DNA of 64,000 bases from positions 1 through 64,000 of the forward strand of contig DASVWD010000218.1 of the NCBI GenBank assembly GCA_036389795.1, given 5' to 3'. This stretch comes from Longimicrobium sp. (lineage in GTDB: Bacteria; Gemmatimonadota; Gemmatimonadetes; Longimicrobiales; Longimicrobiaceae). How positions within the stretch are numbered: the first letter of the stretch is position 1; every line of letters starts with the position of its first letter. A program made the position numbers and the translations under genes. The notes under the pieces were generated by a model. It saw only the letters and a program-made list of their open reading frames with translations. It was not told the DNA's origin and made no database searches. This document shows, in pieces, positions 3,603 through 61,040 of this stretch.

Positions 3603-3649
3603 CACCCCCGGTGGCGCCACGCCTACGTCAGCCGAAGCGGGATCGAAGT

Positions 3650-3683
3650 CGCACTTCGCACTTCGCACTTCGCACTTCGCACT
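3650..3683 (+). repeat. Heptamer tandem repeat (CGCACTT, about 4.9 copies)
   Basis: Uninterrupted 7-bp units end 34 bp before the second NRPS start. The copy before gene 1 has one more unit and three CGCACCT variants, so copy number differs between the two duplicated spacers. Confidence 0.9.
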
Positions 3684-7359: not shown

Positions 7360-28032
<20,673 letters not shown>

Positions 28033-28114: not shown

Positions 28115-28120
28115 GGAGGT
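28115..28120 (+). promoter_or_regulatory. Ribosome-binding site GGAGGT of the Cys-rich precursor
   Basis: A perfect GGAGGT lies 6 nt before ATG 28127. It fixes the start of the short gene and rejects a longer reading from 27953. Confidence 0.85.
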
Positions 28121-28126
28121 AATCCC

Positions 28127-28456
28127 ATGAAGACCCTGAAGCTGCATCTGGACGACCTGGCGGTCGAGTCGTTCCAGACCCTGCCGCAGGACGAGGCGCG
28201 CGGCACCGTACGTGCCGCTAACGCGCCGACGGTCTACGCGTGGGAGTACTCGTGCGAGAATTCGTGCCCCGACAGCGAATGCTGGCCCGTTCCCCCGGAG
28301 ACGGCGGGTTGGACCTGTCCCGATTCCTTTGCCGACACCTGCTGGGATACCTGCGTCGGCTGCGGCACCAACGTGACCTGCACCTGCTACACCTGCAACG
28401 CGACGTGCGCAGGAGACACGTGCTATGAGACGTGCGCATTCACGTGCTCTTGCTAG
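28127..28456 (+). CDS. Cys-rich RiPP precursor, lanthipeptide-like (pinensin-type leader)
   Basis: The 109-residue product has an acidic/hydrophobic leader (residues 4-18, LKLHLDDLAVESFQT). From memory this resembles the LxLDxLxVESFxT leaders of pinensin-family lanthipeptide precursors. A linker RGTV follows, then a core from about residue 41 with 15 Cys, no Lys and many Thr. Thirteen of the 15 Cys are directly preceded by Thr or Ser, a spacing that would suit dehydration of Thr/Ser followed by thioether closure, or disulfides. Start and RBS are clear. It lies 180 bp downstream of the NRPS thioesterase and is followed by a strong hairpin, so it is its own unit. No LanB, LanC, LanM, peptidase or exporter is in the window, so any modifying enzymes would act from elsewhere. 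Other possibilities are a metal-binding or disulfide-rich secreted peptide. Confidence 0.75.
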   Translation: MKTLKLHLDDLAVESFQTLPQDEARGTVRAANAPTVYAWEYSCENSCPDSECWPVPPETAGWTCPDSFADTCWDTCVGCGTNVTCTCYTCNATCAGDTCYETCAFTCSC

Positions 28457-28530
28457 CCCGAGACCTGCGTATGAGCTGCCGCCAGCACGACGGTAACCCG
28501 TAGACGGGGTGCCGCCACGGACAGGAGACG

Positions 28531-28567
28531 AGAGAGCCGGCCACCCTCGCGGGGCGGCCGGCTCTCT
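28531..28567 (+). terminator. Hairpin after the Cys-rich precursor
   Basis: A perfect 12-bp stem (AGAGAGCCGGCC with its complement) closes a 13-nt loop, 75 bp after the stop codon. Only a weak T-rich tail follows. Confidence 0.7.
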
Positions 28568-28674
28568 TCGGGTGCGAGGCGAGGGAGGCGTGCGAGGCCG
28601 CGTGGGCGATCGACGGCACGGGCACGCACCTTCCGGTGGAGCGTCGGCGAGAGCCCCGCTTCACCGGAGAGAGC

Positions 28675-47877: not shown

Positions 47878-47976
47878 CGCACTTCGCACTTCGCACTTCG
47901 CACCTCGCACTTCGCACTTCGCACTTCGCACTTCGCACTCCCGTACTTTCGTACTCTCGTACTCCCGTACTATAAT
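47878..47976 (+). repeat. CGCACTT heptamer array running into CGTACTNN octamers
   Basis: About nine CGCACTT/CGCACCT units are followed by CGTACTTT, CGTACTCT, CGTACTCC and CGTACTAT. The last octamer overlaps TATAAT at 47971-47976, the apparent -10 box of the TetR gene. Confidence 0.92.
47971..47976 (+). promoter_or_regulatory. -10 box TATAAT of the TetR gene, inside the repeat array
   Basis: The consensus TATAAT ends 7 nt before ATG 47984. Transcription would start at or within a base or two of the start codon, giving a leaderless mRNA. No GGAGG precedes the ATG, which agrees. The -35 region (TTCGTA near 47948) is repeat sequence and weak. Confidence 0.6.
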
Positions 47977-48583: not shown

Positions 48584-48620
48584 GCACTTTCGCACTTTCG
48601 CACTTTCGCACTCACGCACT
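48584..48620 (+). repeat. GCACTTTC/GCACTCAC octamer array after the TetR stop
   Basis: The first GCACTTTC unit begins directly after the TAA (48581-48583). Three GCACTTTC units are followed by GCACTCAC and GCACTGCG. The last two match the unit type found inside the NRPS adenylation domains. Confidence 0.92.
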
Positions 48621-57615: not shown

Positions 57616-57650
57616 GGTGCGAAGTCCTGAGTGCGAAAGTGCGAAAGTGC
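57616..57650 (-). repeat. GCACTTTC/GCACTCA repeat between kinase and regulator genes
   Basis: Read on the minus strand, two GCACTTTC units, then GCACTCAGGACTTCGCAC, fill the whole spacer from the kinase stop to the regulator start. The phrase GTGCGAAGTCCTGAGTGC is shared with 47748-47765. Confidence 0.88.
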
Positions 57651-60952: not shown

Positions 60953-61040
60953 AAGTGCGAGAGTACGAAGGTACGAGGTACGAAGGTACGAGGTACGAAG
61001 GTACGAGAGTACGAAAGTACGGGGTACGAAGTACGGGGTG
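60953..61040 (+). repeat. GTACGAAG/GTACGAG-type tandem repeat array
   Basis: About ten imperfect 7-9 bp units (GTACGAAG, GTACGAG, GTACGGG) lie between the lipoprotein array and the glycosidase gene. They are the reverse-strand relatives of the CGTACTTT octamers at 47942-47973. Confidence 0.88.

Follow-up and report, generated by a model that had tools for sequence, protein, structure and literature searches.

A cysteine-rich gene of Longimicrobium sp. as part of a candidate class I lanthipeptide system with many dispersed precursors

Main finding

The gene at positions 28127-28456 of the window (the whole stretch of 64,000 nucleotides that was analysed) encodes a Cys-rich peptide and is best read as one piece of a larger class I lanthipeptide system in which many precursors are modified in trans. 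A preliminary description of this DNA had called the gene an orphan, which it is not: the same genome carries at least 138 different complete precursors with a common leader, read from fetched DNA on 59 contigs, as well as a class I set of LanB, SpaB_C and LanC. This one, presumably promiscuous, machinery is encoded on contig C225 and probably takes the peptide as an in-trans substrate. The modification step is suggested by the co-occurrence of leader and LanB, and modification of this particular precursor appears likely; its expression, binding by the enzymes, ring choice, cleavage and export are presumed.

The gene and its product

The features of the region are as follows.

28115..28119, + strand: Shine-Dalgarno sequence GGAGG, 7 nt upstream of the ATG, read from the sequence
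28127..28456, + strand: precursor gene, 109 aa, containing 15 Cys of which 13 stand behind Thr or Ser
28127..28216, + strand: pinensin-type leader, residues 1-30, MKTLKLHLDDLAVESFQTLPQDEARGTVRA, from profile scores and the leader alignment
28217..28453, + strand: hypervariable Cys/Thr-rich core; the border is putative and placed at the end of the GTV motif
28529..28570, + strand: strong, terminator-like hairpin lacking an evident T run (-48.7 kcal/mol on folding, z -2.3)

The reading frame opens with an ATG at 28127 and comprises 109 codons before a stop ending at 28456. Its translation confirms the earlier count of 13 Cys out of 15 behind Thr or Ser, the other two being preceded by Glu and Gly. 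This number is far above chance: 200,000 shuffles of the core gave a mean of 3.4 and a maximum of 10 such pairs. There is no Lys beyond the leader, as had also been stated. The core length proposed at that time, about 68 residues, is approximate; cleavage behind the GTV motif would leave about 79 residues. Cys-Cys distances of 4 and 8 are enriched and CxxxC spacings are numerous. Neither a Pfam search with the 109-residue sequence nor a comparison with plasmids returned a match.

Among the NCBIfam models, the precursor has one weak match, to the pinensin leader NF038180, with 16.2 bits and thus below the cut-off of 24 that defines the pinensin family; about 20 paralogues of the same genome exceed this value. 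A leader profile built from the paralogues, with the precursor held out, recognizes it at 48.7 bits (E 1e-12). The leader motif derived from the alignment of 34 leaders is M-x-K-L-x-L-x-L-D-x-L-x-V-[ED]-[ST]-F-x-T ... R-G-T-V, with invariant positions L6, L11, V13, F16, G26, T27 and V28, and the first 30 or so residues of the precursor read LxLDxLxVESFxT...RGTV. The leader had been described as lanthipeptide-like from its letters; the match of 49 bits to the held-out profile and the presence of LanB, SpaB_C and LanC in the genome agree with that description.

A large family dispersed over the genome

Paralogues were collected from profile, pattern and BLAST matches and then re-read from fetched DNA. 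The count takes in complete open reading frames 40 to 150 aa long that have two or more Cys beyond residue 28, and 138 is a lower bound. The profile of 34 leaders matches at least 149 places in the source genome, where 150 candidates were scored, and 104 of the 138 precursors lie outside its building set (median 52 bits for these). Further queries were applied to this genome: at E<=10 the precursor itself matches 75 places, at E<=1 NF038180 matches 99 (about 20 of them above its cut-off), and a DNA pattern for LxV[ED][ST]F gives 110 matches, against 2 for the reversed control, recovering 70 of 86 known members. The genes stand singly on 33 of the 59 contigs, and up to 14 copies occur on the others. 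The assembly has draft status, with 98% completeness and 3.75% contamination, and, because of this, a few of the copies could be on foreign contigs; some copies may also be silent or decaying.

Most of the paralogues whose 5' DNA was inspected likewise have a GGAG-type site ahead of the gene. A search for a shared promoter motif upstream of the paralogues brought out only the ribosome site and words rich in Cys codons.

One set of class I enzymes

Three neighbouring genes of contig C225 constitute the sole class I dehydratase set of the genome.

C225:8739-10970: LanB_N, glutamylation protein (PF04738, 1.8e-41)
C225:11527-12456: SpaB_C protein (PF14028, 9.5e-41)
C225:13182-14300: LanC cyclase (PF05147; zinc motifs WCHG and LCHG)

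Both the glutamylation and the elimination parts of a LanB-type dehydratase are thus present, and a LanC with zinc ligands adjoins LanB. A precursor inside the LanB cluster, another mark of a class I system, is not found at 28127-28456 but is found for family members in relatives. The contig terminates about 340 bp after LanC, so that precursors and a transporter of this locus are out of sight. The genome search suggested in the preliminary description, for LanB/LanC or LanM and for further precursors, yielded LanB/LanC, LanM and at least 138 precursors; the lack of lanthipeptide-type enzymes that it had named as counter-evidence is thus not observed.

Among solved structures, LanB_N matches best 6ec7, a lantibiotic dehydratase domain protein, and SpaB_C matches 5ehk. 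We take 6ec7 to be TbtB, a thiopeptide enzyme. The best-scoring model for SpaB_C is the thiopeptide-type TIGR03891 and that for LanC is a LanM model. In LanC proteins of this clade the C-terminus is extended by some 240 residues or more, and this extension has no clear Pfam match (L056 12546-15038, L108 10489-12600, L122 5424-7748).

Two LanM genes lie on contig C28 of the source genome (L058, 7451-19167) with several small VAGG-leader precursors, forming a separate class II system. A LanC-like gene adjoins a HopA1-family gene on contig C285 (L057, 9899-12215), a pair resembling class V lanthipeptide enzymes.

Leader and LanB in relatives

The leader is present in 10 of 21 genomes of the bacterial family (G000, the source genome, G001, G004, G007, G009, G011, G012, G014, G015 and G017) and absent from the other 11. 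The NCBIfam leader model and our 34-leader profile delimit the same ten genomes. Matches reach at least 150 in G011 and in G012, 86 in G017, 80 in G001 and 51 in G007. LanB (PF04738) occurs in exactly these ten genomes; under independence the coincidence would have a probability of 1/352,716, a figure that overstates independence for 21 related genomes. G010, G013 and G016, although of the same genus as leader-bearing genomes, have neither leader nor LanB.

Adjacency to LanB is more direct evidence than co-occurrence. In G014, a precursor of 80 aa with 14 Cys in SC/TC/GC repeats lies about 320 bp upstream of LanB on the same strand, and precursors are located within a few kb of LanB in G001, G007, G012 and G017. 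A LanB scan of the genomes of 84,980 species gave 11 loci, of which 8 have a VESF-leader, mostly TC-rich precursor in the flanking DNA. The named loci closest to the query come from Gemmatimonadota metagenome bins, and loci with a precursor include Ignavibacteriales (L122), Thermoanaerobaculia (L124) and Acidobacteriota (L125, L126). The gene order is LanB, a 319-aa ORF, LanC, a nucleotidyltransferase-like gene, precursor, ABC transporter, HlyD and subtilase in L122, and LanB, a 314-aa ORF, precursor, LanC, ABC transporter and subtilase in L126; the two ORFs are candidate SpaB_C proteins by position only. Almost perfect STCG repeats form the cores of precursors near LanB in L124 (at 13983) and L126 (at 13936).

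Core pattern and possible rings

The core pattern, regarded as unusual in the preliminary description, is a habit of the whole family and is also seen in precursors beside LanB in relatives. In the family cores, 545 of 1,068 Cys follow Thr or Ser, 2.6 times the number in shuffles (210 +/- 12). Ranked by the fraction of Thr/Ser-Cys pairs among the 106 cores with at least five Cys, the precursor at 28127-28456 is third and is therefore an extreme but ordinary member. Its lack of Lys is no family rule, as Lys is present in 44 of the 138 cores. Leaders of paralogues are 49% identical and cores 23%, against 20% for shuffled cores. The nearest own paralogue is 40% identical to this core, and no orthologue of the core was detected in 20 relatives, the only matches at E<=1e-6 being one own paralogue and a weak one in G011 (34-43% identity).

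We know of no lanthionine register for direct TC pairs, and the earlier remark that rings would have to skip from adjacent pairs to other Cys is a fair one. If lanthionines form, the natural registers in TCxxTC would be Thr(i)-Cys(i+5) or Thr(i)-Cys(i-3). Ser/Thr are enriched at -1 and -5 relative to Cys and also at +3, but the enrichment at -5/+3 does not prove a ring register because a spacing of 4 between TC pairs is enough to produce it. To our knowledge, the ring register of such TCxxTC-periodic cores would have no precedent in a characterised lanthipeptide.

Alternative readings

With 15 Cys, many CxxxC spacings and enriched Cys-Cys distances of 4 and 8, the product might be an unmodified protein, either metal-binding (metallothionein-like) or disulfide-folded, whose N-terminus is merely a targeting sequence, and the lack of an enzyme gene beside it would agree with this. 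Such a role is nevertheless quite unlikely: the protein has no Pfam match, the cores have almost no pattern conserved between paralogues, Cys follow Thr or Ser (the LanB substrates) at 2.6 times the frequency seen after shuffling, and the leader is restricted to LanB genomes and lies near LanB in several phyla. A somewhat better, though still small, chance is given to decay of this one copy, the family being functional but the isolated gene being no longer expressed or processed. It is a single copy behind an NRPS gene that is itself frameshifted and its core has no orthologue in relatives; however, it has retained an intact frame along with its leader motif, ribosome site and terminator-like hairpin, and 33 of the 59 contigs carry such genes singly.

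The genome also encodes two other types of synthetase, the two LanMs on C28 and, on C285, the HopA1/LanC pair that resembles class V, but it is very unlikely that the precursor is a substrate of either. LanM is missing from G012 (at least 150 leaders), G009 and G004 while being present in the leaderless G010, and the small precursors that accompany the LanM genes bear another type of leader, VAGG. HopA1 is limited to 3 of the 21 genomes, G000, G001 and G013, the last of which is leaderless. Both were rejected as partners since their distribution in the 21 genomes does not follow the leader. The affinities of LanB_N to 6ec7 and of SpaB_C to TIGR03891 might point to a thiopeptide or azole-type product in which Thr/Ser-Cys pairs become azolines. 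We consider this hardly probable, since the partner gene is a LanC with zinc motifs, LanC also stands beside LanB at several other loci, and no YcaO was identified among the scanned neighbours of LanB.

Proposed pathway and known systems

In the preferred reading, modification in trans by the C225 enzymes, the conserved leader would dock on the split LanB. The LanB_N protein would glutamylate Thr and Ser of the core using glutamyl-tRNA, the separate SpaB_C protein would eliminate glutamate to give Dhb or Dha, and LanC would couple Cys thiols to these residues, after which the leader would be removed and the product exported. One enzyme set would serve all scattered precursors (at least 138), leaders being kept while cores vary freely. 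The family probably provides many antagonistic or signalling peptides. The full proposal, that a single split LanB with LanC serves some 140 or more dispersed hypervariable precursors, the largest lanthipeptide substrate set that we found reported, and installs ring ladders in TCxxTC-periodic cores, we rate at about even chances.

In-trans combinatorial lanthipeptide biosynthesis is known mainly from class II enzymes of marine cyanobacteria. If true, the present system would be a second, independent case, in class I, and the variety of ring-shaped peptides that this bacterium makes with one enzyme set may exceed that of any case reported so far. It would imply a leader-directed dehydratase of very wide tolerance, useful for peptide engineering, and, with nearly every Cys behind Thr or Ser, natural test material for the choice of ring register by LanC. 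Most of the repertoire has probably been overlooked because cluster-based genome miners detect only the few precursors near LanB. No paper describing this system came up in the open literature searched.

The closest relatives by leader are the pinensins of Chitinophaga pinensis (NF038180), to whose leader family the roughly 20 paralogues above the cut-off belong. The pinensin LanB is likewise split into two proteins and LanCs of that family are near LanM cyclase domains (PMC7268733), as the C225 LanC scores best with the LanM model. In contrast to the single pinensin cluster, at least 138 copies are dispersed here over the genome, many of their cores are much richer in Cys, LanC has the extension of about 240 aa, and the precursor at 28127-28456 itself falls below the leader cut-off. 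The arrangement resembles that of prochlorosins and synechococsins, where one enzyme set serves many scattered or tandem precursors with a conserved leader and a hypervariable core. ProcM has 29 precursors and SyncM 79, the 79 SyncA of one Synechococcus being the largest set found in print (PMC10783134, PMC9872173). Unlike prochlorosins, the system described here has more precursors, a pinensin-type leader without GG site, and a class I split LanB with LanC instead of a class II LanM, and it is LanB, not LanM, that tracks the leader. It is best regarded as a class I counterpart of the prochlorosins, exceeding the largest reported set found. A separate glutamylation protein and a SpaB_C-like protein also characterize the split LanB of TbtB/TbtD-type thiopeptide systems, which differ from this one by its LanC partner and the lack of YcaO in its scanned neighbourhood.

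Surroundings in the window

The precursor gene lies directly behind a large NRPS gene, as previously noted, and the terminal part of that gene is a thioesterase. No modifying enzyme was seen nearby in the parts examined, again in line with the earlier account, and the eight other stretches of the window that were scanned gave no RiPP enzyme.

The NRPS gene contains arrays of the octamer ACGCACTC near the ends of adenylation domains (window 10074-10103, 21583-21612 and 26484-26506). The last is shorter than the other two by about one unit, and at this array the NRPS gene goes out of frame, its terminal PCP-thioesterase part continuing in another frame (26543-27946). This may reflect either slipped-strand variation or an assembly error. 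Many short tandem arrays of 7 and 8 bases, of the TCGCACT/CGCACTT/GTACGAAG type and some of them related to the NRPS octamer, occur in the window, as listed here.

81-121, 3649-3683, 47878-47939, 48584-48620, 57630-57650 and 60958-61039: 7-/8-base tandem arrays
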